The position numbers and the translations under genes are program-made. The notes beneath the pieces are model-generated. The model ran no database searches, was not told where the DNA came from, and was given only the letters and a program-made list of their open reading frames with translations. Below, piece by piece: positions 1 through 35,102 of a DNA stretch of 38,972 nt (positions are counted from its first letter, which is position 1; each line of letters begins with the position of its first letter). This DNA is from an uncultured bacterium. Lineage in GTDB: Bacteria; Bacillota; Clostridia; Oscillospirales; Oscillospiraceae. The DNA lies in assembly GCA_946548895.1 (NCBI GenBank), contig CAMNQF010000033.1, positions 1 through 38,972 on the forward strand, in the 5' to 3' direction.

Positions 1-51
1 ATAATTACATTTTTTCCTCGGCGTTTTCTTACATTTTATCACTGGCGCTGA

Positions 52-833: not shown

Positions 834-1370
834 TCACTTGTCAAAAGCCGGGTTTGTAAAGTACACGTTTTTCTGATCCAGCCGTTCCTTTGCCAGGGCG
901 ATCGCTTCGCCGAAACGCTGAAAGTGTACGATTTCCCGCTCACGCAGGAAGCGGATGACGTTGCTTACGTCCGGGTCATCGGATAGCCGAAGTATATTGT
1001 CGTATGTGAGGCGGGCTTTCTGCTCTGCGGCCATATCCTCAGTCAGGTCGGCAATGACGTCGCCAGTGACTTGCATTGTGGAGGCAGACCACGGATAGCC
1101 CGAGGCAAATTGGGGATAAACTCCGGCCGTGTGGTCAACAAAATAGGCGTCGAAACCGGCTGTTTTAATTTGATCTTGGTTCAGATCGCGGGTGAGCTGA
1201 TGCACCAAGGTTCCAATCATCTCCAGGTGCCCCAATTCCTCTGTGCCGATATCGGTGAGCAGCCCTTTCAGTTCAGGGTAGGGCATGGCGTACCGCTGGG
1301 ACAGGTAGCGCAGGGAAGCGCCCAGTTCGCCGTCGGGACCACCATAGTGCAACAGACTGCAACGTTGCAT
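834..1370 (-). CDS. cotJC: CotJC-type manganese catalase, 3' part of a split gene
   Basis: This is a spore inner-coat protein of the manganese catalase family. The sequence runs in register with CotJC from YGGPDGEL to the usual end (NPAFDK). All dimanganese ligand motifs are visible: GEL (Glu), EELGHLEM (Glu and His), AAEQ (Glu) and REREIVHFQRF (Glu and His). The first 25-30 residues normal for CotJC are absent. The residues before GGPDGEL (MQRCSLLHY) are supplied from the recombinase side. The ATG overlaps the stop codon of the serine recombinase as TAATG. I infer that the native 5' end, with cotJB and cotJA upstream, lies beyond the right end of the inserted element. The gene would be whole only after excision. 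The protein family is clear; function in the integrated state is doubtful. Confidence 0.85.
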   Translation of the reverse strand: MQRCSLLHYGGPDGELGASLRYLSQRYAMPYPELKGLLTDIGTEELGHLEMIGTLVHQLTRDLNQDQIKTAGFDAYFVDHTAGVYPQFASGYPWSASTMQVTGDVIADLTEDMAAEQKARLTYDNILRLSDDPDVSNVIRFLREREIVHFQRFGEAIALAKERLDQKNVYFTNPAFDK

Positions 1371-1375
1371 TAAAA
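1330..1375. other. Probable left attachment junction (attL) inside cotJC
   Basis: CotJC homology begins at about 1345 and the serine recombinase gene ends at 1370-1372, so the crossover must lie in this short interval. It contains the perfect 12-bp palindrome TGCAACGTTGCA at 1358-1369. Large serine recombinases usually bind imperfect inverted repeats around a 2-bp core. The exact core cannot be fixed without the other end. Confidence 0.55.
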
Positions 1376-2833
1376 CATCATGCGGTAGGTGATTGCCAGG
1401 GTGGAAGACTTCTTATCAAACACACAGGTTTCCAGGATGGACCGGGCGGCCATGTTTTTCTCCTCAATTGTGGTTTCCGGGGAGCGGAGGGTTTCCAATG
1501 CCGCCGCGATGGAGGAGCGCAGGGCGGGTACTACGGCGTCCTGGGCCAGCATTGCCCGGCGGGCCGCAAGGTCCTTTTCCGTATGGGCAATGTTGGCGTC
1601 CAGAGACTGTTTCGCGCTGGCAAAGTCGGCCAGGTCGAAAACACCGGCGAGATATGCCTCCTGGAGCCGTCCCTTCTTTGCGCGAAGCAGCTTGAGCGCG
1701 GCCTCCAGCTCGCGCAGTCCGCCGCCGGCCGAAGCGCTGGTGCAGGTTACGTCGTAGGAGACACAGGTGGAGCCATAAGCATCCTCGGCCATCCGGGCTA
1801 TGACCGCCTCGGCCAAAATATCCGCCTTGACGTGTTGGGAATGGGAGCAGCTTCCCCGGACATAGCTGTTGCACTTAAAATAGTGGGGCTTGGCGAAGAT
1901 CAGCGTGCTGCCGCAGGCGGAGCAGCGCACCAGCCCGGACAGCCAGTGCTTCAGCTCGTAGGTGGGGCGGGCCTTATAGCCAAACTGCGCTTTCATGCGG
2001 TCCATGCGGTCCTGTGCCGCTTTCCAGGTTTCCATGTCGATGAGCGGTTCGTGTTCGCCGTCGGCCACAATAATGTTTTCGTCAAAAAAGTCCCGGCGGC
2101 TCCGGCCGGCGGGGTTCCACCTGAGCTTGCCGATGTAGACCGGGTTTCGGATGATGTACTCGACGGTGCGGTTCTCGAAGGCGTTGCCCCGGTGGGTGCG
2201 CACCCCTTGGTCGTTCAGCTCCTTGGCAATCTGGTAGATCCCGGCCCCGGCCGCAAAGCGGTCAAAAATGCGGCGGACATGAGCGGCTTCCTCTGGCAAG
2301 GGGATTAGCTTGCCGCCCTCGGCGCGGTAGCCGAAGGAAGGGGATGCCTGCAGCTTGCCCCGCTGGGCGTTCACCGTCATGGAGCGCTTGACCTCCTGGC
2401 TCAGGCGGATGGAGTAGAACTCGTCCATCCACTCAATGATGCGCTCGATCAGGCTGCCGAAGGGCCCCGCGATCAGCGGCTCAGTGACGCTGATTACCTC
2501 GATGCCGCACTTGGAGCGGAGGACGGATTTATAGAAAATACTCTCCTCCTGGTTGCGGGCGAAACGGCTGTATTTCCAGAGCAGGATGACCGAGAAGGGG
2601 CAGGCGGCCTCCTTGGCCTGGGCCACCATCCGCATGAACTCCGGGCGGCGCTCCGCCTTTTTCCCCGAGATGCCCGCGTCGATATAGATGTGCTGATTGA
2701 GCAGGAGCAGGCCCTCCCGCTGGGCGTATTTGCGGATCTCCTCCAGCTGAGAGTCGGGGGAGAGCTCCGCCTGATCGTCGGTGGAGACGCGGATATAAGC
2801 CGCCGCGTAACGGGGCAGGGCAGGGGTGGGCAT
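1370..2833 (-). CDS. Large serine recombinase (prophage integrase)
   Basis: This 487-residue site-specific recombinase should integrate and excise the element through a phosphoserine intermediate. The N-terminal resolvase domain carries AAYIRVSTDDQ with the nucleophile at Ser17 and WKYSRFARN near residues 86-94. A recombinase domain follows (about 165-290), then a zinc ribbon with Cys304, Cys307, Cys321 and Cys329, and a coiled-coil region from about 370 to 430. The length is normal for the family. The start at 2833 is supported by GAGAGGAGG 8 nt upstream. The gene lies at the very end of the element with its 3' end touching the cotJC junction. This resembles the recombinase of skin-like and A118/TP901-type elements. 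A separate directionality factor was not recognised. Confidence 0.95.
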   Translation of the reverse strand: MPTPALPRYAAAYIRVSTDDQAELSPDSQLEEIRKYAQREGLLLLNQHIYIDAGISGKKAERRPEFMRMVAQAKEAACPFSVILLWKYSRFARNQEESIFYKSVLRSKCGIEVISVTEPLIAGPFGSLIERIIEWMDEFYSIRLSQEVKRSMTVNAQRGKLQASPSFGYRAEGGKLIPLPEEAAHVRRIFDRFAAGAGIYQIAKELNDQGVRTHRGNAFENRTVEYIIRNPVYIGKLRWNPAGRSRRDFFDENIIVADGEHEPLIDMETWKAAQDRMDRMKAQFGYKARPTYELKHWLSGLVRCSACGSTLIFAKPHYFKCNSYVRGSCSHSQHVKADILAEAVIARMAEDAYGSTCVSYDVTCTSASAGGGLRELEAALKLLRAKKGRLQEAYLAGVFDLADFASAKQSLDANIAHTEKDLAARRAMLAQDAVVPALRSSIAAALETLRSPETTIEEKNMAARSILETCVFDKKSSTLAITYRMMF

Positions 2834-4883: not shown

Positions 4884-5480
4884 TCAATACTTTGCCCGCA
4901 GCTCCACCACCCGCCCAATGACCCGGACGGGCAGCTGCTCCACCTCGGCGGCGGTGTAAAACATGGGATCATAGGCCGGGTTGGTCGGCAGCAGGGTGAT
5001 GCCGTCCTGGCCATATTTGATTTTCTTGACCGTTGCGCTGTCTCCGTTGACCAGCACCACCACTGTGTCCCCGGTCTCGGCAGTTTCCTGCTGGCGGACG
5101 ATGACCACGTCGCCCTCCCGCATTCGGGGTTCCATGCTGGCCCCCTTGATCCGCAGCCCAAAGAACTCTCCCGTCCGGGCCAGGGCGGCGTCAATCTCTT
5201 CGTAGTCCACGATGTCGGTGATGGCCTCAATAGGGATGCCGGCGGCGACGTCGCCTAGGACAGGAATTCTGACACCGCTGGAGACAGGGACTTCCGTATT
5301 TCCGAGCAAATAGTCAACGGATACCTCGAACAGCGCCGCTAATTTGAGAATTTGATCTTTATCAATCTTTGCTTTCCCATTCTCCCAATAGGAGTATCCA
5401 TTCTGAGTTAACCCAATGGCTTGTGCCACCTCGGTTTGGGTTAGGCCCTTTGCCTTGCGAGCAGCTTTCAGATTGTTCAT
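4884..5480 (-). CDS. CI/LexA-type repressor with S24 autoprotease domain
   Basis: This 198-residue protein is the likely master repressor of lysogeny. Residues 1-60 form an XRE helix-turn-helix (GLTQTEVAQAIGLTQNGYSYWENG). Residues 70-198 form a LexA-like peptidase S24 domain with the Ala80-Gly81 cleavage bond, Ser115 in GASMEP and Lys152 in ATVKKIKY. RecA-stimulated self-cleavage after DNA damage would release the lytic genes; this is family knowledge. The start at 5480 has GAGGTG upstream. Its promoter (5498-5526, minus) faces the rightward promoter at 5566-5594 across a region full of TATCAA half-sites. This is the expected layout of a lysis-lysogeny switch. Confidence 0.93.
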   Translation of the reverse strand: MNNLKAARKAKGLTQTEVAQAIGLTQNGYSYWENGKAKIDKDQILKLAALFEVSVDYLLGNTEVPVSSGVRIPVLGDVAAGIPIEAITDIVDYEEIDAALARTGEFFGLRIKGASMEPRMREGDVVIVRQQETAETGDTVVVLVNGDSATVKKIKYGQDGITLLPTNPAYDPMFYTAAEVEQLPVRVIGRVVELRAKY

Positions 5481-6952: not shown

Positions 6953-7186
6953 ATGCCACGGAAGGAACAGAAGATCAAGGTGGTCAGCTATGTCCATGTG
7001 GGCGATCAGCTGGTGTGCACGGACGACCTGGACCCGGAGCGGAAAAAGCAGCTGGCCACCTGGATCAAGTGTACTTATCTCAACGCCCTGTTCGCGGGCA
7101 AGGCGAAATTTTACCCGGTGGAGGATGGTGAAAAGGAAAAACACTTGTCGGGCAAACCGGGGGCGCCGGATCGTCCCCAGGCATAA
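6953..7186 (+). CDS. Small conserved-type phage protein, function unknown
   Basis: This 77-residue basic protein begins MPRKEQKIKVVSYV. ATG 6953 is chosen over TTG-type upstream starts because GGAGG lies 7 nt before it. It has no membrane segment or recognisable catalytic motif. Its position between an XRE regulator and the replication genes, on a continuous rightward strand, suggests an early regulatory or accessory role. I cannot assign a family. Confidence 0.65.
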   Translation: MPRKEQKIKVVSYVHVGDQLVCTDDLDPERKKQLATWIKCTYLNALFAGKAKFYPVEDGEKEKHLSGKPGAPDRPQA

Positions 7187-8453: not shown

Positions 8454-8620
8454 GGCGGTGCAAAATCCCCACCGGCTGCAAACGGGCGGACAAGCCCTGC
8501 TGCGCGGACTGCGGGGACAAGACCTGCCAGGCCCGGTGCTGGAACGACCCCAGGCGCTGCTGGTGCTGGACCGAGGCTCCGCCGCCCAGGGCGGAGGGAA
8601 TTGGAGGGAAAAAGGCATGA
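8450..8620 (+). CDS. Small cysteine-rich protein
   Basis: This 56-residue protein has nine cysteines in pairs (CKIPTGC, CCADCGDKTC, RCWND, RCWCW), suggesting one or two small zinc-binding knuckles. The ATG overlaps the preceding stop (ATGA) and has GGAGG 7 nt upstream. Its own stop overlaps the dnaB start in the same way, so the three genes are tightly coupled. I recognise the pattern as one often seen beside phage replication genes in Clostridia, but no function is known to me. Confidence 0.75.
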   Translation: MRRCKIPTGCKRADKPCCADCGDKTCQARCWNDPRRCWCWTEAPPPRAEGIGGKKA

Positions 8621-9984
8621 CAATTCTTGACCGGGGCGCCCAGGCCCAGATGTCGGTGATCGGCGCCATGCTCATCGACGAGCAGTGCGTCCCGCTGGTG
8701 CTGTCCAAGCTGGCCCCGAAGGATTTTGCGGACGGAACCTGCCGGGCCACCTTTGCCGCCATCCGCAGGCTGGCCCGGGAGGGGCGGCCCGTGGACCCGG
8801 TGACGGTGACGGACGCCATGCGGGGGGGCGACCGCTACATCGCCTGGTGCCGGGAGGTCATGGAGACCACCCCCACCGCCGCCAACGTGGGGGAGTACAT
8901 ACCGATGGTGCGGGAGCACGCCGCCCGGAGGCGGGTGCTGGAGCTGTCGGAAAAGCTGCCGGAGGCGGCGGACCACGCCCAGCTGGAGGCGCTGGTGCGG
9001 CAGATGGTGTCGGCGGCGTCAATTACGGACCGCGTCCCCATGATGACGGGCCCGGAGCGGGCGGCCGACTTCCACCGGCGGATGAGCGGCGCGGACAGGC
9101 CCCAATACCTGCCCTGGGGCATCCCCACGGCGGACCGGTGCGTCTACGCCGAGCTGGGGGACATGATTCTGCTGGGGGGCTACGCCTCGTCGGGCAAGAC
9201 CCTGCTGTCCATCGCCATGGCCACCGTCCAGGCCAAGGCGGGCTACCGGGTGGGCTACTACTCCCTGGAGACCAGCCCCCAGAAGATCACGGACCGGCAG
9301 ATCGCCGCGCTGGCCGGGGTGCCGCTGCGGAAGCTCAAGACCAGGCAGTTCAGCGAGGGGGAGTGGGCCCGGTTTGCCCAGGCGGAGAATTTCGCCGCCA
9401 CGGAGGGGAGCTTCGCCGTCATCGACGCGGCGGGGCTCTCGGCGGAGGACGTGGCCGCCCACGCCATTGCCCACGGCTTCCAGATCGTCTACGTGGACTA
9501 TGTGCAGAACCTGCTCTCGCCGGGGACGCGGGCCTCGGACAACTACGCCCGGGTCACCGCCATCAGCCAGAGTCTCAAGACCTTTTCCCGGAGCACCGGG
9601 ACGGCGGTAGTGGCCCTGGCCCAGCTCTCCCGCCCGCCCAAGGAGAACGGGAAGCCCGTGCCCCCTTCCATGCACTCCTTCAAGGAGTCCGGCCAGCTGG
9701 AGCAGGACGCGGACGCGGCTTTCCTGCTGTATCCCTCCGACCCGAACGACAACAACTCCAACCGAATCTTCAAGATCGGGAAAAACAAGGAGGGCCCCCG
9801 GGGACAGGCGGAGCTGGTGTTCCACGGCGACACCCAGACCATGGTGGAGGTGGAGCGGAATCATTCGGCGGCGGCGGAGCTCTCCGCCCGGGGCCGGGCC
9901 GTCAAGCGGGCGAACCGGGCCGCCGCCCGGCGGGAGCAGTTCCGGGAGGCGGAGGACGGGGACGGGGAAAACCCGTTCGCGTAA
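8617..9984 (+). CDS. dnaB: Phage replicative DNA helicase, DnaB family
   Basis: The 455-residue protein has the DnaB N-terminal helical domain (about 1-100; SVIGAMLIDEQCVP). The RecA-like helicase domain has Walker A GGYASSGKT at about 188-196 and Walker B IVYVDYVQNLL near 290. The residues ALAQLSRPPKE and SFKESGQLEQDAD around 330-360 match the DnaB arginine-finger region. It should unwind DNA at the phage replication fork as a hexamer. ATG 8617 is chosen over the longer open frame from 8458 because GGAGG lies 9 nt upstream and it couples to the gene before. It forms a replication module with the organiser at 7602. Confidence 0.95.
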   Translation: MTILDRGAQAQMSVIGAMLIDEQCVPLVLSKLAPKDFADGTCRATFAAIRRLAREGRPVDPVTVTDAMRGGDRYIAWCREVMETTPTAANVGEYIPMVREHAARRRVLELSEKLPEAADHAQLEALVRQMVSAASITDRVPMMTGPERAADFHRRMSGADRPQYLPWGIPTADRCVYAELGDMILLGGYASSGKTLLSIAMATVQAKAGYRVGYYSLETSPQKITDRQIAALAGVPLRKLKTRQFSEGEWARFAQAENFAATEGSFAVIDAAGLSAEDVAAHAIAHGFQIVYVDYVQNLLSPGTRASDNYARVTAISQSLKTFSRSTGTAVVALAQLSRPPKENGKPVPPSMHSFKESGQLEQDADAAFLLYPSDPNDNNSNRIFKIGKNKEGPRGQAELVFHGDTQTMVEVERNHSAAAELSARGRAVKRANRAAARREQFREAEDGDGENPFA

Positions 9985-10137: not shown

Positions 10138-10923
10138 GTGAGAACATTCGCGATTTTGAACATGAAGGGCGGCGTGGGCAAGACCACCACCGCCGTCAAC
10201 CTGGCCTACCTGCTGGCCGCCGAGTACCGGCTCAGGACGCTGCTCATCGACGCGGACCCCCAGGCCAACGCCACCCACGCCCTGCTCCCGGACGGAGACC
10301 GGACCGGGCTGGCGGGGCTGCTGGGCGGATACGCCACCGTGTACGACGAGGTGGTGGCGCCCTCCGGCATCCCCAACCTGGATGTGATCCCCGCCTCCGA
10401 GGAGCTGTGGGGCATCGACCTGAACGAGCGCACCGGGGACCGCCCGCTCCATGGGACGGCAAGCGCCCTGCGGGACCTCCGGGACGCGGCCATGGAGGAC
10501 GACGCCTATGACGTGATCGTCATCGACTGCCCGCCCAACTTCTCGGCGGCCTGCGTGGCCGCCATCAACGCCGCCAACAGCATCATCATCCCGGTGCTGC
10601 CCGACGCCTTTTCCGCCGCCGGCATGGACAGCCTGGTGTACCAGATCGACGGGGTGCGGAAAATTCATCCCGATGTGCGGGTGGCCGGGTGCCTGGTGAC
10701 CCAGTGGCACCGGGCGGACGTGGTGGAGGACGCCACGGCCCACCTGCGCTCGGAGTCGCCGGTGCCGGTGTTTGACACGGTGATCCGGCGGACGGACAAG
10801 GTGCTGGAGGCCACCTGGGCACGGGAGCCGGTGCAGACCTGGAGCCCCTTCAGCGCGGCGGCCCGGGACTATCGGGCCTGGGTCAAGGAGCTGGTGCGGA
10901 AGGAGGGCCTGGAAAATGCCTAG
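10138..10923 (+). CDS. parA: ParA-family partition ATPase
   Basis: This 261-residue deviant-Walker ATPase has KGGVGKTT at residues 10-17, the Walker A' segment LLIDADPQ at about 35-42 and Walker B VIVIDCPP at about 126-133. ParA proteins move plasmid or phage DNA along the nucleoid with a partner protein and a centromere. GTG 10138 has GGGGAGG upstream, partly held in a hairpin. The next gene overlaps its 3' end by 8 bp and encodes a DUF3102 coiled-coil protein, a likely partner. A ParB-domain gene begins 27 kb away at 38216. ParA in a prophage suggests stable maintenance of a plasmid-like or excised form, though this is inference. Confidence 0.92.
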   Translation: MRTFAILNMKGGVGKTTTAVNLAYLLAAEYRLRTLLIDADPQANATHALLPDGDRTGLAGLLGGYATVYDEVVAPSGIPNLDVIPASEELWGIDLNERTGDRPLHGTASALRDLRDAAMEDDAYDVIVIDCPPNFSAACVAAINAANSIIIPVLPDAFSAAGMDSLVYQIDGVRKIHPDVRVAGCLVTQWHRADVVEDATAHLRSESPVPVFDTVIRRTDKVLEATWAREPVQTWSPFSAAARDYRAWVKELVRKEGLENA

Positions 10924-16986: not shown

Positions 16987-17493
16987 ATGCCGGGACCAAG
17001 ACAACCGACGGAATTGGTGATGGCAAACGGCCGCAAGCACCTGACCCGGGCCGAGACGGACCAGCGCCTGGATCAGGAGGTCCATGTGCCGGTGCCGGAT
17101 CAGGCGGAGCCTCCCCCGTGGCTGCCCAAGAAGCTGCACGCTGAGTTCCGGCAGGTCGGCGAGATTCTGCGGATGGCGGGTCTGTACGCGGAATTGGACC
17201 GGGACGCCCTGGGGCAGTATTTCCTGGCCCGGGAGCGGTGGCAGCGGGCGGACAAGCTGGCCAGCGCGGCCATCCGGGACAAGGATGAAAAGCTGGCCAA
17301 GGAGTGGACCGGCGTACAGAGCACCTATTTCCGGCAGTGCCGCCAGTGCGCCGAGGTGCTGGGCCTGTCCATCTCGTCCCGGTGCCGCCTGGTGGTGCCG
17401 CCCGCCCTGAGCGCCGCCGCGGCGCCCGCGGAGGAGGACGAATTCACCCGGGCGCTGCGGGCCAGACAGAATCGGGCCGCCGGTGGAGACTGA
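16987..17493 (+). CDS. terS: Terminase small subunit, P27 family
   Basis: This 168-residue protein has features of P27-type small terminases. These are a basic N-terminus (MPGPRQPTELVMANGRKHLT), PPPWLPKKLHAEFRQVGEIL at about 42-61, then helices with DALGQYFLARERWQRADKL. A C-terminal region that contacts the large subunit follows. It recognises phage DNA and loads the packaging motor. AGGGGAGGG precedes the ATG. The gene almost abuts the large subunit and follows the HNH nuclease, the standard order. Confidence 0.9.
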   Translation: MPGPRQPTELVMANGRKHLTRAETDQRLDQEVHVPVPDQAEPPPWLPKKLHAEFRQVGEILRMAGLYAELDRDALGQYFLARERWQRADKLASAAIRDKDEKLAKEWTGVQSTYFRQCRQCAEVLGLSISSRCRLVVPPALSAAAAPAEEDEFTRALRARQNRAAGGD

Positions 17494-17497
17494 GCCT

Positions 17498-19315
17498 GTG
17501 CCTAACGTGGAACAGAGCGGACTTTGCTTCGACGAGGAATGCGGGCGGTTTGTATGCGATTTCGTGGAGCGCCTGCCCACCACGGACACAGGGAAGCCCT
17601 TTGACCTCCACCCATGGCAGCGTGGCGCCATCATGGAGTTTTATTCCACCCTGGAGCCCTTTGACGAGATGGGACACGATGCCGGGGCGCTGGTGCGCAA
17701 GTATCAGTATCTCTACCTGGAGATCCCCAAAAAGAACGGTAAATCGGAGCTGGCCGCCGCCCTGGGGCTGTACCACCTGTTTGCGGACGGCGAGATGTCC
17801 GCCGAGGTGTACGTGTGCGCGGCGGACCGGGAGAACGCCGATATTGTATTCCTGGCCGCGGTGTTCATGTTGGAGAGCGCCTCATGGACCGCTAAGATGG
17901 TGGCCTCCGGCGAGCTGAAGATCATCCGCTCCAAGCGGCGCATTGAGTTCCGCCAGCGGCAGAGAGCGGACAACGGCCGCGTGGACTGGGTGATGGTTGG
18001 CCGCCTCCAGGTGCTGTCTGCCGAGGCCTACTCCAAACACGGATACCGGCCCTCCTGCGTCATCTTTGACGAGCTCCACGCCCAGCCCAACCGGGATTTG
18101 TGGGACGTCATGACCTTCGGCGCGGGGTCCGGGCGGCGCCAGCCGGTTTGGATTGTGCTGACCACCGCCGGAGATGACCCGGACCGCACCAGCATCGGCT
18201 GGGAGGTCCACGAGAAGGCGGTGGCCATCCGGGACGCCCGGCATCTGCGCGCCATCCTGGCGGAGGGCGGAGATCCCAGGCAGGTTCTCAGCCTGCGCCA
18301 TACCGAGTGGTCGGACATGGAGCAGGCCCAGGCCGCGCTGCTGGAGCGGGATATGCCCAACTGGCTGCCGGTGCTGTACGGCCTCACCGCCATGTATGGT
18401 GACGACCCGGACGACCTGGCCAAAACCGACATCTGGGACGAGGCGCTGTGGTATCAGTGCAATCCCTCCCTGGGCACCCACCTGGCGCTGCGCACCCTGC
18501 GGCTGGAGGCCCGGGAGGCGAAAAAGAGCGAGGCGGGGGAAAAGCTGTTCCGCTGGCTGCGGCTCAACCAGTGGATCGCGGTGAAGGCGGTGGGCTGGCT
18601 GCCGCTGACCCTGTACGACAAAACCCAGTGGGGGCCGTCCAAAAAGGCGGAGCGGGAGGCATGGACGGAACAGCTCCGGGGCAAGACCTGCTATGGCGGG
18701 CTGGATATGTCCATGACCACCGATTTGACGGCGCTCACGCTGCTGTTCCCGCCCCAAAAGGGTTTGGATACCTGGGTGGCCCTGTTTCAAGCGTGGCGGC
18801 CCCGCGACACCGCCCCGGAGGCGGAGCGCCGGGACCACGTGCCCTACCGGGATTGGGAGCGGGCGGGCTTCCTGACCCTGTGCGAGGGGGATATGGTGGA
18901 CTACCGGGATGTGACGGCGGCGGTGCTGGCGGCGGCGGAGCTCTACGACCTCCAGGCCCTGGGGGTGGACCAGCATCTGACCCAGACCATCACCCCGGCC
19001 CTCCAGGACGCGGGAATTCTGGTGATGGCCATCCCCCAGACCATGCTGGGTATGTCCCCGGCCATGAAAGAGCTGGAGCAGCTCATCCGGCGTCATGAGA
19101 TGCTCCATGTGCACAACACCTGTGCCCGCTGGAACTTTGGCAATGTGCGGTGCGCCGTGGACGGCAACGAGAACATCAAGCCCATGAAGAACCGCTCCAC
19201 CGGGCGCATTGACATCACGGTATCCTGGATTATTGCCATGGCGGCGGCGATTCAGCGCAGAAGCGTGCCGCCGGACCTGAACGCCGCGCTGGAGCGGGGA
19301 AATTACCAGATGTGA
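17498..19315 (+). CDS. terL: Terminase large subunit
   Basis: This ATPase-nuclease of about 605 residues powers DNA packaging into the capsid. The N-terminal motor has a variant Walker A PKKNGKSE (about 77-84) and Walker B CVIFDELHAQ (about 187-196). The C-terminal RNase H-like nuclease starts with YGGLDMSMTTDLTAL near 405. The C-terminal region GNVRCAVDGNENIKPMKN is typical of Terminase_1 (HK97/P27 type). GTG 17498 is preferred because GGTGGAG lies upstream and it avoids overlap with terS. GTG 17483 in the same frame is the alternative. Confidence 0.95.
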   Translation: MPNVEQSGLCFDEECGRFVCDFVERLPTTDTGKPFDLHPWQRGAIMEFYSTLEPFDEMGHDAGALVRKYQYLYLEIPKKNGKSELAAALGLYHLFADGEMSAEVYVCAADRENADIVFLAAVFMLESASWTAKMVASGELKIIRSKRRIEFRQRQRADNGRVDWVMVGRLQVLSAEAYSKHGYRPSCVIFDELHAQPNRDLWDVMTFGAGSGRRQPVWIVLTTAGDDPDRTSIGWEVHEKAVAIRDARHLRAILAEGGDPRQVLSLRHTEWSDMEQAQAALLERDMPNWLPVLYGLTAMYGDDPDDLAKTDIWDEALWYQCNPSLGTHLALRTLRLEAREAKKSEAGEKLFRWLRLNQWIAVKAVGWLPLTLYDKTQWGPSKKAEREAWTEQLRGKTCYGGLDMSMTTDLTALTLLFPPQKGLDTWVALFQAWRPRDTAPEAERRDHVPYRDWERAGFLTLCEGDMVDYRDVTAAVLAAAELYDLQALGVDQHLTQTITPALQDAGILVMAIPQTMLGMSPAMKELEQLIRRHEMLHVHNTCARWNFGNVRCAVDGNENIKPMKNRSTGRIDITVSWIIAMAAAIQRRSVPPDLNAALERGNYQM

Positions 19316-19326
19316 GGAGGTTTTAT

Positions 19327-19536
19327 ATGGAGGGCGAAAAAAAACAGCGCCCCCGTCTGCGGGAACGGCTGACGGGGTGGCTGGGCCGCTGGGGCGCGGA
19401 CCTGCTGCTGGTGTGGGGGGCCGGGTGCGCCGCCGCCGGGGCGGGGTGGATCTATCCGCCCGCCGGACTGATCGCGGCGGGGGTGTTCCTCATCCTGGGC
19501 GGCGTCCTCTGGGCCAGGGGAGGGGATGAGCCGTGA
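19327..19536 (+). CDS. Small two-span membrane protein between terminase and portal
   Basis: This 69-residue protein has a basic, charged N-terminus (KKQRPRLRERL) and two hydrophobic segments at about 25-42 and 46-63. It could form a hairpin in the membrane with the N-terminus inside. ATG 19327 is chosen with GGAGG 6 nt upstream. Its stop overlaps the portal start. The position between terL and portal is unusual for a membrane protein. A holin-like function is possible by size and topology but cannot be claimed. Confidence 0.7.
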   Translation: MEGEKKQRPRLRERLTGWLGRWGADLLLVWGAGCAAAGAGWIYPPAGLIAAGVFLILGGVLWARGGDEP

Positions 19537-20834
19537 TCTTTGACAAGGCGCTGCGCAAACGCGGCGGGCCCGCCCCGCCCGCCCCCGGCGGCGTGCTCAC
19601 CCTGGAGAGCTCCGCCGGCTGGGAGGGCTGGACCAGCGAGGACGCCGTGGCCATGTCCCGGGACAAGGCCATGAAGCTTTCCACCGTGTCCCGGTGCGTG
19701 GAGCTGCGGGCCAACGCCGTGGCCATGCTGCCGGTGTACCTGATGGACGAGCGGACCAAGGCCCGGCCCCGGGACCACCCTCTGGGCCCCCTGCTGTGGG
19801 GCCCGCCCAATGAGGCCATGACCCGGTTTGATTACGAGCGGCTGATGCAGGCGAATCTGGACCTGCGGGGCAACGCCTACGCCTGGATCGGCCGGGACCG
19901 GCGGACAGGCCGCCCCGGGGAACTCATCCCCCTGCGGCCGGACAGCGTGACCCCGTATCTGGACCCCGCCGGGGCGCTGTGGTACGTCTACGCCGACCCC
20001 CACACCGGGGCGCTCACCCGGCTGTCCCCGGAGGACGTGCTCCACTATAAGGCGTTCTCTACCGACGGCATCACGGGCATCTCCATCCTGCGGCGGGCGG
20101 CAGCGGCCATCTCCACAGGGCTGTCCGCCCAGCAGTACCAGGCGGACCTGTACGCCAACGGCGGGAGGCCCTCCGGGGTGCTGAAAACAAGCACCGATTT
20201 GAGCGGAAAGCCATCTGTGCAGATATCCAACGCAAAAGGCGAGACGGAGTCCATCTCCCGGAAGGAATTAATCCGCCGGGAATGGGAGAAGGTGCACAAC
20301 GGACCGGGGAAGGGATTCCGGGTGGCGGTGCTGGATCTGGGGCTGGAGTACACCCCCATCGCCATGAGCAACGCCGATGCCCAGTTCGTGGAGTCGGAGG
20401 AGTACCGGGTGGCGGACGTGGCCCGGTTCTTCGGGGTGCCGCTCTACCTGCTCAACGCCGGGAGGCAGGCGTACTCCTCCAACGAGCAGAACAGCATCGA
20501 CTTTGTGAAGCACACCGTGCTGCCTCCCATCGTCCAGCGGGAGCAGGAGGACAGCCGGAAGCTGCTGCTTCCCCGGGACCGGGAACAGGGCCTGCGGGTC
20601 AAGCGGGAGCTCAAGCAGCTGCTGCGGGGGGACACCGCCGCCCAGGCGGCGTGGTACAAGGCCCTGTGGGAGATCGGCGTGTACTCGGTGGACGACATCC
20701 GGGCGCTGGAGGACCTGGAAAACGTGCCGGGCGGCGGGCACCGCCCCGCCAGCCTGAACTATGTGCCGCTGGAATTCTGGGCCGAGCTGTCCCGGCTTCG
20801 GGCCCTCCAGGGCCGGCGGGAAGAAAAGGAGTGA
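19533..20834 (+). CDS. HK97-family portal protein
   Basis: This 433-residue protein forms the dodecameric portal at the capsid vertex. Family features are AMKLSTVSRCVELRANAVAM near residue 45-65, LDLRGNAYAWIGRD at about 108-121, LSPEDVLHYKAFSTDGITGI at about 155-175, and ADVARFFGVPLYLLN with EQNSIDFVKHTVLPPI near 295-330. The length is normal. The GTG start at 19533 overlaps the previous stop codon. It is followed by a putative protease and the capsid gene, the classic order portal-protease-capsid. Confidence 0.95.
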   Translation: MIFDKALRKRGGPAPPAPGGVLTLESSAGWEGWTSEDAVAMSRDKAMKLSTVSRCVELRANAVAMLPVYLMDERTKARPRDHPLGPLLWGPPNEAMTRFDYERLMQANLDLRGNAYAWIGRDRRTGRPGELIPLRPDSVTPYLDPAGALWYVYADPHTGALTRLSPEDVLHYKAFSTDGITGISILRRAAAAISTGLSAQQYQADLYANGGRPSGVLKTSTDLSGKPSVQISNAKGETESISRKELIRREWEKVHNGPGKGFRVAVLDLGLEYTPIAMSNADAQFVESEEYRVADVARFFGVPLYLLNAGRQAYSSNEQNSIDFVKHTVLPPIVQREQEDSRKLLLPRDREQGLRVKRELKQLLRGDTAAQAAWYKALWEIGVYSVDDIRALEDLENVPGGGHRPASLNYVPLEFWAELSRLRALQGRREEKE

Positions 20835-20839
20835 CGCGG

Positions 20840-21523
20840 ATGGATATGACGTGCAAGACGGCAGTCCCCGGCCCGGAGGATCTGGCCCGTATCAACGCCA
20901 TGGCCCGGCGGGAGCTGGGGGCGGAGGAAGTGTATACCTTCGCCCTGCGGCTGTGCGACAACGACATCGACCGGGATTTAGAGCGGTTTGGCGACGAGAC
21001 GCTGGACGAGCTGGCGGGGCTGTTCCTGGGGGCCCCGGGCATCTTTGACCACTGCTGGTCGGCCAAGGGGCAGACGGCGCGGCTGTACCGCGCGGAGGCG
21101 GTAGCGGAGCCGGGGCGGCTCACCGCCGACGGGCGGCCCTACCGTTACCTCAAAGGGTGGGCCTACATGATGCGCACGGAGGACACCGCGCCCCTCATCG
21201 CCGAGATCGACGGCGGCATCAAGCGGGAGGTGAGCGTGGGGTGCTCGGTCCGGCAGGTGGTGTGCTCCGTGTGCGGCCAGGAGCTGGACCGCTGCGGCCA
21301 CGAGAAGGGGCGGCGGTACGGCGGACAGCTGTGCCACGGGGTGCTCACCGGGGCGGCGGACGCCTATGAATGGTCCTTTGTGGCGGTGCCCGCTCAGAAG
21401 AGGGCGGGCGTGGTGAAATCCAAGCGGTACGGCGGGGAAGATCCCCATCAGGACAGTTCCAAGGCAATCCGGGCGGCAAGGGCCCGCCTGGCGCTGGAAA
21501 AAATCAGATTTGGAGGAATGTGA
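20840..21523 (+). CDS. Putative prohead protease with cysteine-rich insert
   Basis: This 227-residue protein sits between portal and capsid, the place of the HK97-type prohead protease. It contains IFDHCWSAKGQTARL (candidate catalytic His, about 71-85) and GGIKREVSVGCSV (candidate Ser in a VSVG context, about 127-139). An unusual Cys/His cluster follows (CSVCGQELDRCGH), likely a zinc knuckle, and then YEWSFVAVPAQ, which fits the end of the U35 protease fold. ATG 20840 is chosen with AAGGAG 7 nt upstream. The identity rests on motifs and position, and the cysteine insert makes it atypical. Confidence 0.7.
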   Translation: MDMTCKTAVPGPEDLARINAMARRELGAEEVYTFALRLCDNDIDRDLERFGDETLDELAGLFLGAPGIFDHCWSAKGQTARLYRAEAVAEPGRLTADGRPYRYLKGWAYMMRTEDTAPLIAEIDGGIKREVSVGCSVRQVVCSVCGQELDRCGHEKGRRYGGQLCHGVLTGAADAYEWSFVAVPAQKRAGVVKSKRYGGEDPHQDSSKAIRAARARLALEKIRFGGM

Positions 21524-21525
21524 CC

Positions 21526-22749
21526 ATGGAAAAGATCAGCAAGCAGGCGCTTTACCAGCTGAAGGCCGACCGGTCGGAGGCCCTGGAGGCGGCGGAAAAG
21601 GCGCTGAACGAAGAGCGGATGGACGACCACGCCGCCAAAATGGCGGAGGTGGAGGGCTACAACGCCAGGATCGCCGCCGTGGAAAAGACGCTGGCGGAGC
21701 GGGAGCGGTTCGGCGGGCAGGAGGGGGCGGGCAATCCCCCGGCTGTGGAGCAGGAGCCGGAGCTGAAGGGCTATGAAGCCGCGGTGAAGTCCTTTGCGGC
21801 GGCGGCCCGGAACGGCTTCCGGGTGGACAAGGCGGAGACCGCCCCCACCGGCCATATGCGGGAGGGCAGCGACCCGGACGGCGGATACACCGTGCCGGAG
21901 GACATTGTGACCCGGATCATTTCCCTGCGGGAGGCCAAGGAGAGCCTGCTGGGGGAGGTGCGGGTGGTGAACGTCACCACCAAGAGCGGGCGGCGGACCA
22001 TCAAGAAGCGGGGCCAGCACCAGGGCTTCGCCACGGTGGCCGAAGCGGCCAGGTTTGGCAAGACGGCCACCCCCCAGTTCGCCGTGCTGTCCTATGAGAT
22101 TGAGAAGCGGGGCGGCTACCTGCCCGTCACCAACGAGCTGCTGGAGGACAGCGACAACAACATTGCCGCCATTGTGGAGGAGTGGCTGGCGGATGAGGCC
22201 CGGGTGACGGCCAACAATGAGATCCTGGCGGTGGTCCAGGCCAAGGCCGCCAAGGACCTGAAAAACCTGGACGGTATTCTGTCCGCCTGGGTGGGGCTGG
22301 GCTCCACTTTCCGGGCTACCTCCAAGCTCATCACCAATGACGACGGCCTGTTGTGGCTGGGCACGCTGAAGGACGGCAACGGGCGTTATCTGCTCACCCC
22401 CAACCCCGCCGACTCCCAGCAGCTCCGGCTATGCGTGGGCCCCCATGTCCTGCCGGTCAAAACCTATGACAACGACACCATCCCCACCAAGGACGGCAAG
22501 ATCCCCATGATTCTGGGCGACCTGAGAGAGGGTGTAGTGTACTGGGATCGCCGGGCGTTCAGCCTGAAGGTATTCGATCAGGCCACCATCGGCGAATTCA
22601 ACGCGGCGGAGCAGGACATGACGCTGTGGCGGGGCTCCCTGCGGGACGACTGCACCGTCCGGGACGACGGGGCGTTTGTCAACGGCTGCGTCTCCGTGTC
22701 CGCCGGGACTTCCAGCGGCGGTTCGGGCGCCCAGGAGCCCCAGGGCTGA
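21526..22749 (+). CDS. HK97-family major capsid protein
   Basis: The 407-residue protein has an N-terminal coiled-coil scaffold-like delta domain (about 1-75, rich in Glu, Ala and Lys). The HK97 fold follows: DPDGGYTVPEDIVTRI at about 119-134, YEIEKRGGYLPVTNELLEDS near 190-210, a P-loop region and IGEFNAAEQDMTLWRGSLRDD near the end. It forms the icosahedral head after cleavage of the delta domain by the upstream protease. Length and order are normal. The start follows GGAGG by 8 nt. Confidence 0.95.
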   Translation: MEKISKQALYQLKADRSEALEAAEKALNEERMDDHAAKMAEVEGYNARIAAVEKTLAERERFGGQEGAGNPPAVEQEPELKGYEAAVKSFAAAARNGFRVDKAETAPTGHMREGSDPDGGYTVPEDIVTRIISLREAKESLLGEVRVVNVTTKSGRRTIKKRGQHQGFATVAEAARFGKTATPQFAVLSYEIEKRGGYLPVTNELLEDSDNNIAAIVEEWLADEARVTANNEILAVVQAKAAKDLKNLDGILSAWVGLGSTFRATSKLITNDDGLLWLGTLKDGNGRYLLTPNPADSQQLRLCVGPHVLPVKTYDNDTIPTKDGKIPMILGDLREGVVYWDRRAFSLKVFDQATIGEFNAAEQDMTLWRGSLRDDCTVRDDGAFVNGCVSVSAGTSSGGSGAQEPQG

Positions 22750-26784: not shown

Positions 26785-27255
26785 GTGATCACCAACAACG
26801 ACATTGCCGACGCCGTGGAGACGCTGGTGAGACAGGCCTTTCCCGAAGAGCCGGTGTACCGGGGCTACGTCCCGACGGGCTTTCAGCGGCCCAGCACGCT
26901 GGTGGAGATCTCCGGGGGCAAATTCTATCCCAATACCGCCTGCGGCTCGGTGGAGGTGCGGCCCAGGCTCACCCTGACCACTTTTGTAGAGACGGACCCC
27001 TACCATCAACAGGAGGACCGGGAGCTGACCCGGCGGCAAATGATTCTGCTGGGACTGTTCCTGCCGGGGTACGTCAAGGTGAAGGACCGGGCTCCTCATG
27101 TGCTGGATGAGGGGGAGCTGGCCAACGGGCTGGACTTTGCCGCGGTCACCGCTGTCCTCAGCTACACACTGGACCGCAGGGAATTCATGGAGCTTCAGCA
27201 GGCGTCCGATATGGGCACGCTGCACATCAGACAGGAGGTAAGCACGCATGGCTAA
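26785..27255 (+). CDS. Tail completion protein
   Basis: This 156-residue protein begins MITNNDIADAVETLVRQAFP, with PSTLVEISGGKFYP and RLTLTTFVETDPYHQQEDRE. It fits the tail-terminator/completion group (DUF6838-like) normally found immediately before the sheath gene in PBSX-like phages. GTG 26785 has GGAGG 8 nt upstream. It overlaps the sheath gene by 8 bp. The family name is inferred from sequence style and position. Confidence 0.75.
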   Translation: MITNNDIADAVETLVRQAFPEEPVYRGYVPTGFQRPSTLVEISGGKFYPNTACGSVEVRPRLTLTTFVETDPYHQQEDRELTRRQMILLGLFLPGYVKVKDRAPHVLDEGELANGLDFAAVTAVLSYTLDRREFMELQQASDMGTLHIRQEVSTHG

Positions 27256-28318
27256 ACTTACAAGCCCCAGAGTGTCGGTGATCTTCACCGAGCTGGGCAT
27301 TTCCGCCATCACCCGGGGCGACAAAGGCACGGTGGCCCTCATCGTCCGGGACGGGGCGGAGCAGGTTCCTTTCGCCATCACACAGGCCAGCCAGGCCCCC
27401 GCCGCCCTGAGCAAAGAGACCCAGGACTACATCAAGCGGACCTTCCTGGGATACGTCAACCCGCCCAAGAAGGTGATTGTGTACGTGCTGGGGCCGGACA
27501 GCGCGCTGACCGACGCCCTGGACTACATGGCGGCCCAGTCGTTCGACTACATCTGCGGCCCGGCGGACTGCACCAGGGAGGAGGCGGCGGACATCGCCAG
27601 CTGGGTGAAAAGCCGGCGGCTGAACGACGGCGCCAAGTTCAAGGCGGTGCTGCCCAACCACGCCGCCGACAATTACGCCATCGTCAACTTCACCGGGGAC
27701 GGCATGACGGACGGCGCCACGGTGTGGACCACGGCGGAATACTGCTCCCGGATCGCGGGGCTGCTGGCGGGCACGCCCATGAAGATCGCCGCCACCTACG
27801 CGCCACTGCCGGAATTGAGCGACTGCGCCCGGCTGACGCGGGAGGAGAGCGACGAGGCGGTGGGGGCCGGGGAGCTGGCCCTGCGCTGGGACGGGCGGAA
27901 GGTGAAGCTGGACCGGGCGGTGACGTCGCTGGTCACCACGTCCCAGGGGATGCTGGACAGCTTCAAAAAAATCAAGATCGTGGAGATCATGGACTTGATC
28001 CGCACCGACATCACCTCCACCGCCGAGGACGATTACGTGGGCAAGTACGCCAACACCTACGACAACAAGCTGCTGCTGATCACCGCCATCCGGGGCTATT
28101 TTATGGGCCTGGAGCAGAGCCAGCTGGTACAGCCAGGGTATACGGTGGACCTGGACGTGGACGCCATCGAGCAGTACCTGACGAGCCGGGGGGTCAACGC
28201 CGAGGAGATGAGCGAGCAGGAGATCCGGGAGGCGGACACCGGCTCCCACGTGTTCATCCTGGTGCGGTGCAAGATCCTGGACGCCATCGAGGACATCATC
28301 ATCGTGGTGGAAATCTGA
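27248..28318 (+). CDS. Contractile tail sheath protein (XkdK-like)
   Basis: This 356-residue sheath subunit defines the phage as a myovirus. XkdK-like features are SPRVSVIFTELGISAITRG at the start, AQSFDYICGPADCTREE near 98-112, and a C-terminal domain with KIKIVEIMDLIRTDI, YVGKYANTYDNKLLLI and GSHVFILVRCKILDAIEDI. The last of these forms the donated strands of the sheath mesh. It contracts to drive the tube through the host envelope. The ATG overlaps the preceding gene and has GGAGG upstream. Confidence 0.93.
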   Translation: MAKLTSPRVSVIFTELGISAITRGDKGTVALIVRDGAEQVPFAITQASQAPAALSKETQDYIKRTFLGYVNPPKKVIVYVLGPDSALTDALDYMAAQSFDYICGPADCTREEAADIASWVKSRRLNDGAKFKAVLPNHAADNYAIVNFTGDGMTDGATVWTTAEYCSRIAGLLAGTPMKIAATYAPLPELSDCARLTREESDEAVGAGELALRWDGRKVKLDRAVTSLVTTSQGMLDSFKKIKIVEIMDLIRTDITSTAEDDYVGKYANTYDNKLLLITAIRGYFMGLEQSQLVQPGYTVDLDVDAIEQYLTSRGVNAEEMSEQEIREADTGSHVFILVRCKILDAIEDIIIVVEI

Positions 28319-29908: not shown

Positions 29909-32086
29909 ATGCCGAACGAGAGTTTAAGCGTCTATCTGACCGCAAAGGATGGAATGTCCCCGGTGCTGGCCTCCATCACGGACAAGACCAAAGCGCTGGA
30001 CAAGGAGAGCCAGGAGCTCCAGCAGACCTTTGAGGCCCTGCAAAAGGCCAACAAGGGTCTCATTGAGCGGAAAACTGAGCTGAAAAGGAAGCTCAAAGAG
30101 GTCAATGAGGAGGTAAAGGAGGCCCGGAAGAACTTCAAGGAACTGGGGGACGAGGCCAGCTCGGACGCCTACCAGACAGCCCAGATGAACCAGCAGAAGC
30201 TGCGCGACGAGATCGCGGCCACCAACAAGGCCCTGCAGGAGAACCAGAAGATCTACAAGGAAAACATTGAGACCATTCGTAAAGGCGATTTGGAGGGGCA
30301 GGGCACCAGTCTAAGCGACATGGCAAAGGGAATCTTTGCCGGACAGATCGGGCAGATGTTTTCGGCCTCACTAGGCGGATTAGGACAATCTGTGCTCACC
30401 AGCGCTATTGGAACCCCAGAGGCTTCGCTGGTCTCCGATATGTTGAGCAGCGCCATTTCTGGTGGCACGGCGGGCGCGATGTTTGGTATTCCGGGCATCA
30501 TTGCCGGCGCCGTTCTGGGCGGGGTGTCTGGCCTGGTTTCCGGCGGAACAAAAATCTTTGAAGCAAAGGACGACGCCTTCAAAGACTACTACGGCGGGCT
30601 GTACGGCGACGTGAAGGACCGCTCGGGGGAGATGGTGGAGAGCGGCACGTCCATCGCCGCCGGACGGGAGAAGGACCGCATTTCCTTCCGAACCCTGTTC
30701 GGGGACGGGGAGACCGCCGACGCCTATCTGGACGAGCTGGTGGACCTGGCCAACCACACGCCCTTCCTCTACGGCGACCTGACGGCCATGAGCAAAACCC
30801 TGGCCACCTACGGCTACAGCGGCAGGGCGGGGGACAAGGACTATATGCTGGACACCCTGCGGGCCATCGGCGACGCCGGGGCGGCGCTGGGAATGGAGAC
30901 GTCCGACATGACCGCCGTGGCCCAGGCCCTGGGGCGGATGAAGTCCAGCGATAAAACCACGCTGGAATATCTGAACATCCTCAACGACCGGGGCGTGGGC
31001 GCGGTGGGCTACCTGGCGGACGCCTATGGGGTGAGCCAGGGGGATATGTACGGCATGATCTCCAAGGGACAGATCTCCGGCACGGAGGCGGTGGAGATCA
31101 TCACGGCGGCGCTGCGGGACGCCTACGCCGGGGCCATGGAGGAGCAGAGCAGGACCTTCTCCGGCGTCACATCCACCCTGGAGGGGCTGGAGCAGGAGCT
31201 GGAAAACGCCGGGGGCGACGCCTACAACAGCCTGCGGGCGGTGGGCCAGAACGCCATGGTGGACGCCTACGGCGGCGAGCTGGGGGACGCCATCAAGGAG
31301 ATCAACGCGGTGATGGGGGAAAACCAGGCCCGGCGGGAGAACCTTCAGGACCAGTATATGCGGGAGACGCTGGACGCGGTGCTCAACGGCAACCAGGGCA
31401 AGGTGTTCACCGCGGAGCAGAACGCCGAGCTGGCGGAGCTGTCCGCCCGGTACACGGAGATGAAGGCCCGGTATGAAGCCAGCGGCGGCGGCGACGCGGA
31501 GGCGGGGGCGGAGATGGAATCGCTGTATGAGCAGGCCCAGGCCCTGGGGCAGGCCTATTTTGACAACAGCGAATTTGTCAAAAAGCTCAACGATACCGAG
31601 CTGGACGAGATCCAGGCCATCCGGGACAACACGGCGGGGCTGGAAAACGCAAGTCAGGCCAGCTACCAGTTGAGCCAGGAGTTGAGCAAGGGGATGGCCG
31701 TCAGGCTCATCAAGGAGAATTATGGCGCGGCCATTGCCGAAGGGAAGGGCGGCGAGCTGCCCGAGCTGGCCACAGTGGGCGGGCACGTAGGACTGGCGGA
31801 GGAGAAGCAGGAGGGCTACTACGGCTACAACGGCATCTGGCACCCCCATGCCTTCGGCCTGGACCGGGCGCCCTATGACGGCTACCCCGCGCTGCTCCAC
31901 GAAGGGGAGCGGGTGCTCACCGCCAGCCAGGCCAGAGCTCAGGACGCGGGGGGCGGCGCGGGCTCCATCCAGCTCACCGTCACCGGGAACAGCTTCACCG
32001 GGACCGGCGAGGAGATGGCCGACCAGCTGTGGAGCATCATCATAGGCAGGCTGGAACAAGCCGCTGCCGCCGCCGCGCCAAAATAA
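29909..32086 (+). CDS. Tail tape measure protein
   Basis: The 725-residue protein sets tail length and exits first during DNA injection. It has a long coiled coil at about 20-120 (LQKANKGLIERKTELKRKLK) and a Gly/Ala-rich hydrophobic stretch at about 190-225 (GIPGIIAGAVLGGVSGLVSG). A TMP-type central domain follows (GDLTAMSKTLATYGYSG, AVAQALGRMKSSDKTTLEYL). Near the C-terminus GYPALLHEGERVLTASQARA matches the common tape-measure end. AGAGGTG precedes the ATG. At 725 residues it predicts a fairly short tail. Confidence 0.92.
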   Translation: MPNESLSVYLTAKDGMSPVLASITDKTKALDKESQELQQTFEALQKANKGLIERKTELKRKLKEVNEEVKEARKNFKELGDEASSDAYQTAQMNQQKLRDEIAATNKALQENQKIYKENIETIRKGDLEGQGTSLSDMAKGIFAGQIGQMFSASLGGLGQSVLTSAIGTPEASLVSDMLSSAISGGTAGAMFGIPGIIAGAVLGGVSGLVSGGTKIFEAKDDAFKDYYGGLYGDVKDRSGEMVESGTSIAAGREKDRISFRTLFGDGETADAYLDELVDLANHTPFLYGDLTAMSKTLATYGYSGRAGDKDYMLDTLRAIGDAGAALGMETSDMTAVAQALGRMKSSDKTTLEYLNILNDRGVGAVGYLADAYGVSQGDMYGMISKGQISGTEAVEIITAALRDAYAGAMEEQSRTFSGVTSTLEGLEQELENAGGDAYNSLRAVGQNAMVDAYGGELGDAIKEINAVMGENQARRENLQDQYMRETLDAVLNGNQGKVFTAEQNAELAELSARYTEMKARYEASGGGDAEAGAEMESLYEQAQALGQAYFDNSEFVKKLNDTELDEIQAIRDNTAGLENASQASYQLSQELSKGMAVRLIKENYGAAIAEGKGGELPELATVGGHVGLAEEKQEGYYGYNGIWHPHAFGLDRAPYDGYPALLHEGERVLTASQARAQDAGGGAGSIQLTVTGNSFTGTGEEMADQLWSIIIGRLEQAAAAAAPK

Positions 32087-34677: not shown

Positions 34678-35102
34678 GTATTTTCCCCATGATAGACCCA
34701 AAGCCTCTGGAAAACAACGGGAATGAAGCGCTTCCGCTTTACAGGGAGGTGGCTTGGGATTATGAGCGGGACGTACCCATATTCCGGGAGGGCCGGCCGG
34801 TGTCCGTCACGGGCAAGGAGGCGCTGAAAGTGTGGATCTGGCGGGCTATCCGCACACCGCGGTTCAAGTATGAGATATACACCTGGGCCTATGGATCTGA
34901 GTTTGAATCCCTGCTGGGCCAGGCGTATACCGATTCCGTCAAGACCGCCGAGGCCCCCCGATACCTAAGGGAATGCCTGCTAATTAACCCATATATCATA
35001 GATGTAAAGGACATTTCCGTTACATTTGATTCCGCGAAATTGACCGTGGTGGGCACGGCCGTCACCGTCTATGGAGAGGAGGAATTTTATGCCATTGTTT
35101 GA
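34674..35102 (+). CDS. DUF2634 baseplate wedge protein (XkdS/gp25-like)
   Basis: This 142-residue protein is of the DUF2634 family, equivalent to gp25-like wedge proteins. ALPLYREVAWDYERDVPIFR, ALKVWIWRAIRTPRFKYEIY and AYGSEFESLLGQAY are all typical. It initiates sheath assembly and contacts baseplate J. It overlaps the preceding gene (ATGA) and the following gene by 14 bp. This gene is slightly lower in GC than the flanks. Confidence 0.9.
   Translation: MSIFPMIDPKPLENNGNEALPLYREVAWDYERDVPIFREGRPVSVTGKEALKVWIWRAIRTPRFKYEIYTWAYGSEFESLLGQAYTDSVKTAEAPRYLRECLLINPYIIDVKDISVTFDSAKLTVVGTAVTVYGEEEFYAIV

Follow-up and report, generated by a model that had tools for sequence, protein, structure and literature searches.

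The locus studied here raises the question of whether a prophage lying within cotJC has ended the use of this coat gene, or whether the gene is put together again by removal of the phage. The window, by which we mean the whole stretch of 38,972 nucleotides that was analysed, comes from an uncultured member of the Oscillospiraceae and holds the 3' part of cotJC directly adjoining a large serine recombinase gene (Table 1). We consider it likely, and hold with some confidence, that a prophage sits in cotJC and that the gene is rejoined without a scar by the prophage's own serine recombinase, presumably in the mother cell.

In the window, the Pfam Mn_catalase model matches the 178-aa ORF at 834-1370 (-) with 148.9 bits over profile positions 29-198. 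The opening eight codons of this ORF, MQRCSLLH, are not CotJC, and the CotJC frame picks up at Y29 (YGGPDGELG...), so 28 codons are absent from the window's cotJC, which agrees with the loss of 25-30 residues given in the initial annotation. The described TAATG overlap is likewise present, combining the TAA of the recombinase ORF (1370-2833 (-)) with the ATG of ORF 834-1370 (-). When searched against the genome's own assembly (116 contigs, 96% complete), the Mn_catalase model matched two places, the window piece (profile about 28-198) and C40:29562-29657 (profile 1-32), and revealed no further cotJC copy. The missing 5' end, which the initial annotation expected together with cotJB and cotJA, was thus located on a different contig of this genome (G000:C40:29562-29660 (+)), behind a fused cotJA-cotJB ORF with CotJA and CotJB domains; the order on this contig is the fused ORF, then MFVYEKKLQYPVRIKNTNPRLAALIISQYGGP, then a stop. 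This 5' end is not an intact one without a trace of the element: it is cut at the core, with non-cotJC DNA beyond. Both the Mn_catalase family match and the cotJA-cotJB-cotJC order identify the gene as cotJC, and the nearest solved structure is Alr3090 (6j42). Upstream of cotJ, G000:C40:28062-28935 encodes what we take to be a radical SAM maturase and a 47-aa cysteine-rich SCIFF-type peptide. On the other side, beside the cotJC 3' end, window positions 1-396 appear by eye to encode the C-terminal part of a tyrosine integrase, and a second mobile element may adjoin cotJC there.

The core TATGGTGGTCC is present at both junctions, in the window (C33) and on C40, and recombination at this core gives ...IISQYGGPDGELGASLRYL..., an unbroken in-frame gene of 198 codons with, for example, the peptide IISQYGGPDGELG across the junction. 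Exact excision would therefore restore cotJC, as had been proposed. The attL arm on C40, GCAACAGTCT, is an inverted repeat of the attR arm GCAACAGACT about the core (9/10 bases, by eye), and in attP the two arms would flank the core as an inverted repeat, which further supports C40 and C33 as the two ends of one element. We found no overlap between the ends of these contigs and no bridging contig with the window's right end, so the element should be ~40 kb or more, with its middle not closed. PHROG searches, which covered 30 chosen window ORFs, gave integrase, repressor, packaging, head, sheath and baseplate genes, the gene set of Caudoviricetes; judged by these genes, the inserted DNA is a contractile-tailed temperate phage whose right end is missing from the window. 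With these matches and both cotJC halves in hand, the interruption of cotJC by a serine-integrase prophage with contractile-tail genes is confirmed.

Table 1. Features of the cotJC junction and of the prophage in the window.
Feature	Position	Strand	Basis or remark
cotJC 3' remainder (codons 29-198) in 178-aa ORF	834..1370	-	first 8 codons element-derived
attR core TATGGTGGTCC, 11 bp	1336..1346	-	identical to attL core on G000:C40
attR element-side arm GCAACAGACT	1349..1358	+	read by eye
Large serine recombinase, S1 clade	1370..2833	-	Resolvase, Recombinase and Zn-ribbon domains
CI-like repressor	4884..5480	-	PHROG
Small protein, 77 aa from ATG at 6953; candidate recombination directionality factor	6953..7186	+	relatives in 5 other S1 elements
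DnaB-like helicase	8458..9984	+	PHROG
ParA-like partition protein	10138..10923	+	PHROG
Terminase large subunit	17483..19315	+	PHROG
Portal protein	19533..20834	+	PHROG
Major head protein	21370..22749	+	PHROG
Tail sheath (contractile tail)	27248..28318	+	PHROG
Probable tail tape measure protein	29909..32086	+	best match is a family of unknown function
Baseplate wedge subunit	35071..36147	+	PHROG

Splits at the same places recur in other genomes beside relatives of the same recombinase, which tells against chance. The breaks fall at S1 (codons ~29-32), S2 and S2b (61-65), S3 (134-136) and S4 (after RFGEA, codon ~177). Within the genus (42 genomes, the window's own included), Mn_catalase matches were found in 35, and a reading of the table by eye gives cotJC in one piece in 12/42, at least one split seen from both sides in 20/42, none in 7/42, and a single side only or a gene cut by contig ends in 3/42 (G008, G016, G026). 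Several inserts can share one gene, with three in G015 and two each in G010 and G023. In the family set, 237 of 300 genomes match Mn_catalase, and among the matches listed, 78 genomes from outside the genus whose best hit fell short of full length (E worse than ~1e-46) were picked by eye. Both junction sides are present in 55 of these 78, a piece ending at a site without its partner in 18, and another arrangement in one (G340); four have weak matches only, judged non-cotJC. Two or more sites occur in 19 genomes of this picked set. S4 was scored in the family set by piece ends only, and some matches counted as near full-length end at profile 188-191, as S4 pieces do (e.g., G126:C60, G135:C19, G179:C72, G353:C12, and G350:C1:2075711), so the count of S4 splits may be too low. 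In the class set (118 genomes, 80 matching), S1, S2, and S3 breaks were found in several further families, and an intact cotJC copy is also present in some of the split-bearing genomes. Across 80 named loci, a set biased towards near-complete matches, the 5' end is contiguous in 67, not contiguous in 10, and cut by contig ends in three.

Many of the surveyed genomes are metagenome bins, and contamination in the window's own assembly is 4%, so phage contigs could in principle have been misjoined to cotJC during assembly or binning. The same junction positions are however found in separate assemblies, both sides lie on one contig in many genomes, and elements are collinear in sister species. In addition, a one-contig genome (G161) carries an S2 element of ~3.1 kb, and the control gene SpoIVA, found in 41/42 genus genomes, is unsplit in 41/41. 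SpoIVA also speaks for a spore-forming background of the genus. We regard an artefact as extremely improbable, the least credible of the explanations considered here. A few arrangements are unusual in themselves. In G394 (one contig), cotJC pieces 1-68 and 61-198 lie on the same strand at C1:2541492 and 2698414, 157 kb apart, a spacing that far exceeds the usual phage, and in G206 (C1:71980-129852) the S3 3' piece and the other two pieces lie on opposite strands, suggestive of an inversion between elements. Another sporulation gene, sigK, also appears split in many members of the genus, at profile ~67 and 106-113 (e.g., G015:C12:53959, C12:63169, and C65:12040; G001:C81; G061:C28). G015 and G017 each hold it as three pieces, and the window genome's own sigK (C57:483-1094) is apparently in one piece.

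To place the breaks, 59 junctions from 51 genomes were set in register on intact cotJC, and 21/59 share at least 8 identical bases. Cores of 2-5 bases weigh little alone, and the in-frame join comes from the register placement on intact genes; automatic core calls were misplaced in G103 and G310 and are doubtful in G034, G059, and G212. All 40 rejoined genes whose 3' end was recovered read through, at 197-202 aa. The other 11 joined genes lack this end: 10 of them run up to S4 and one (G174) to S3. For S4, a single genome, G117, allowed closure, its last codons lying 9.2 kb on and sharing GAAGCGA in register; no S4 tail was found in the stretches examined of the remaining S4 genomes of the set. 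It could be argued that the pieces are translated separately and work as a split protein, with no need for DNA rejoining, given the ATG of the 3' piece, which is coupled to the stop codon of the recombinase gene. Yet the 5' piece ends right after the core, the three inserts of G015 would mean four short peptides, and neither the conservation of the recombinases nor the presence of an identical core at each end would be explained, which makes a split protein very hard to believe. We also asked whether every site falls within the most conserved codons, which is only partly true (permutation p 0.04), with conservation ranks among 188 windows of 2 for S1, 13 for S2, 42 for S3, and 138 for S4. Group II introns as the cause of the splits were rejected, without a separate search, because recombinases and duplicated cores are present.

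Each site has its own kind of recombinase. A recombinase was located by profile in 47/51 split genomes, and was not found in the examined stretches of G001, G059, G103, and G217. In a tree of 66 recombinases (S1 13, S2 25, S2b 5, S3 16, S4 6, and one labelled "extra", the second recombinase of the G015 S2b element), each site group falls on one side of a well-supported branch, with one clade per site for 65/66, and the site changes five times, the least possible, compared to a mean of 35.7 after shuffling. Some labels need qualification: in a first tree of 59 recombinases two S2-labelled rows fell with S2b, after which G096 and G015:65795 were relabelled from S2 to S2b, in agreement with their junction core coordinates, and the labels of G005, G016, G037, and G051 come from a single cotJC piece. 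Because the branches are long, relations among the five groups are unsure. The S2b element of G015 (C10:64241-67636, 4.3 kb) carries two serine recombinases of different lineages. As read from these genomes, the phenomenon is wider than the single window of the initial annotation, involving five cotJC positions and five recombinase lineages.

The inserts range from ~2.4 to >40 kb. Small elements of ~3-6 kb pair the recombinase with cargo, in several cases metabolic or DNA-repair genes: a pyrimidine nucleoside phosphorylase (assigned by Pfam in G161 and from similar ORFs in G228 and G320), an aldose epimerase (G013), a polysaccharide deacetylase (G212), an O6-methylguanine methyltransferase together with a methyladenine glycosylase (G302), or a DNA methylase together with a ResIII helicase (G115). 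Relatives of the window recombinase are also encoded on 20 viral contigs, and in 20/20 the best match is an S1 recombinase (29-81% identity). Just past the recombinase, 19 of these contigs (L248 was left out) were examined: seven run straight into a cotJC 3' piece, two into the reverse of a cotJC 5' piece (by reading), six into att-like sequence without cotJC in the stretch read, and four are cut or unclear. An att-like inverted repeat is present in L232, L243, and L244 and is weaker in L245, and the same test gave none in L236 and L247. Such att-like sequence without cotJC suggests that S1 elements include phages that occur outside cotJC. The nearest deposited phage integrase is that of bajarodcaudo virus 3 (40.5%), after which no S1-like core was found.

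Integration by the serine recombinase is supported by both gene fragments with their common core and in-frame join, by the neighbouring recombinase, by the recurrence within one clade, and by the att sites of viral contigs. The recombinase would integrate the prophage at a fixed attB inside cotJC, for S1 at codons 29-32 just before the DGELG motif, and integration would cut the gene in two; recombination of attL with attR would then remove the phage and rebuild a scarless cotJC. Whether the gene is still used is a different matter. In a plain lysogenic disruption, the phage would use conserved cotJC as its attB, cotJC would be dispensable, and excision would happen upon phage induction only. 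Consistent with this, viral contigs exist with an S1-like recombinase and then an att site without cotJC, and Bacillus subtilis mutants that do not incorporate CotJC into the coat are described as having no apparent defects (PMC12122855).

Selection on the split gene speaks to this alternative. Median dN/dS (NG86, codons 1-180 of 40 joined and 12 intact cotJC, pairs with dS 0.05-0.8 only) is 0.096 for split-split pairs (12 pairs), 0.149 for mixed pairs (44), and 0.147 for intact-intact pairs (36). Since recent insertion alone could explain these medians, 15 chosen pairs were compared, five of them over the whole element, and 3/5 were collinear, which points to inheritance. In G117/G260, 4.8 kb of the element is collinear at 85% and cotJC differs by 1 N / 44 S (its final few codons lie beyond S4); in G275/G152, the figures are 9.0 kb at 90% and 4 N / 63 S; and in G228/G320, elements of 3.0 and 3.3 kb are collinear at 79%, with 6 N / 58 S. 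The recombinases of these three pairs are constrained too (dN/dS ~0.08, 0.11, and 0.16, respectively), and this holds even for the G228 and G320 elements of 3 kb, in which no listed ORF looks like a phage gene by eye, with part of the ORFs searched against families. Where elements are collinear, split cotJC is under strong purifying selection and the recombinase is constrained as well. This argues against plain disruption, since a gene left broken over such a time would be expected to show more damage unless it is rejoined, and the split cotJC is probably rejoined and used; the evidence comes from S2 and S3 elements and does not include S1 or the window prophage, which may be a recent insertion.

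Some elements are also moved or replaced, which would fit lysogenic disruption as well. Recombinase dS compared to cotJC dS is 0.95 vs 0.46 in G117/G260, 0.77 vs 0.78 in G275/G152, and 0.93 vs 0.68 in G228/G320. In the S3 genomes G018, G027, and G063, recombinases are far more diverged than cotJC, with dS of 1.12-1.55 vs 0.18-0.41 (3-8 times higher), as if the elements there and in G117/G260 had been replaced or gained separately. The elements of G161/G228 match in part only, and those of G143/G349 are mosaic. Conversely, the S3 recombinases of G034/G344, from different genera, are 97% identical where cotJC dS is saturated, and the recombinase is closer in dS than cotJC in G143/G349, G137/G313, G028/G023, G014/G034, and G000/G015; these pairs point to transfer of elements.

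If cotJC is rejoined, we would expect the sporulating mother cell to be the place: cotJC would be expressed there, and an element lost from that cell is not lost to the offspring. Excision would then be driven by a small directionality factor produced at this stage, as in skin and SPbeta. The 77-aa protein at 6953-7186 is our candidate for this recombination directionality factor. Its relatives occur in five other S1 elements, including the 4-kb element of G015, and its gene sits divergently beside the recombinase in G115, G088, and G212; other S1 elements were covered in part or are without it (G058). The six proteins came as two groups, of four and two, first joined by eye, and in profile cross-matches the four-member profile finds G010 at 1.8e-6 and G212 only at 0.08, and the two-member profile finds G088 and G115 at ~1e-6.

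A promoter active in the mother cell was sought in several ways. A textbook sigma-E matrix was uninformative on cotJ upstream regions (4/50 at p<=0.05), and a motif read from the data, CATAnnnT with TGTCAC or GGCAC upstream, is present in 44/50 cotJ operons (shuffle mean 6). With a cotJ-type matrix built from 32 of these motif sites, 7/57 recombinases have an upstream hit at p<=0.05 and four at p<=0.01, at most a slight excess; no such promoter was detected before the window recombinase (p=0.12), nor before the candidate directionality factor (0/6 at p<=0.05), and there was no excess inside 27 elements (17 hits vs 19.8 expected). The comparison with skin and SPbeta made in the initial annotation holds for the layout. 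That no clear mother-cell promoter was detected also favours lysogenic disruption, which we nevertheless consider unlikely overall, though clearly less so than a split protein. Separately, ATAGGA(C/T) was noticed upstream of the candidate factor gene, 32-70 bases before its conserved stretch, in 5/6 S1 elements (window ~6906); this motif was seen after the fact, and a 6-mer common to 5/6 arose in 1/300 shuffles.

Known intervening elements help to judge the timing. In Bacillus subtilis, SPbeta interrupts spsM, and the 58-aa SprB, under a mother-cell promoter, controls its excision (PMC4191935). SPbeta resembles the cotJC prophage in being a phage in a spore gene with a large serine recombinase and precise, gene-rebuilding excision (predicted in our case); it differs in the gene, and in that factor and mother-cell timing are demonstrated for SPbeta but are a candidate and presumed, respectively, for cotJC. 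The skin element in sigK of Clostridioides difficile uses a recombinase and a 72-aa factor, with excision confined to the mother cell, and its recombinase is expressed in vegetative cells too (PMC5025042). In both systems the recombinase is not sporulation-specific and a factor of 58-72 aa sets the timing (PMC5025042, PMC4191935), so the absence of a sporulation promoter at the cotJC recombinase is compatible with mother-cell excision. Unlike the cotJC elements, skin is a single element and interrupts a regulator gene rather than one for a coat protein (PMC5025042). The gin element in gerE of Bacillus cereus is, like the small cotJC elements, non-phage, but is 28.6 kb long, with three recombinase genes and one site in a 225-bp gene (PMC5595907). 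In Clostridium botulinum, yin in yabG is prophage-like with a site-specific recombinase, as here, and its circle has been seen, but it is reported as unique to one strain (PMC10747680). Helper-embedded PICIs also enter conserved genes and delay the interrupted gene until excision, with 14 target sites; theirs are prophage late genes, reached by one integrase clade at many sites, whereas in cotJC five clades reach one gene (PMC10111431). The C. difficile phage phi027 adjoins a cotJC homologue, downstream of attR, which it does not split. The window prophage has several features of a sporulation gene-intervening element such as skin, SPbeta, vfbin, gin or yin, with both halves of a sporulation gene flanking it (the ends on separate contigs), a core, an in-frame join, and its own recombinase. 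Excision timed to the mother cell seems reasonably probable for cotJC elements in general, and for the window prophage itself the balance tips only slightly in its favour.

In the literature that was accessible, the interrupted genes and elements named are sigK, spsM, spoVFB, gerE, yabG, and the element vrin, and each intervening element found uses one site of one gene; for cotJC, entered repeatedly by several integrase lineages, no report of an insertion site or of the five-site, multi-lineage pattern was found in the accessible part of open-access PubMed Central. We lean, with moderate confidence, towards cotJC being a shared harbour gene of spore-forming Clostridia, in which five serine-integrase lineages each target their own stretch and the catalase then needs one to three mother-cell excisions. 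The split arrangement would be tolerated since the mother cell dies and the inherited copy stays untouched. Natural replicates of this arrangement number in the dozens and extend from full phages down to elements of 3 kb; they allow a comparison of what a phage must keep to become gene-intervening, of the identity of directionality factors, and of the preference for mother-cell genes. They also imply that many gut bacteria could be misannotated as being without CotJC.
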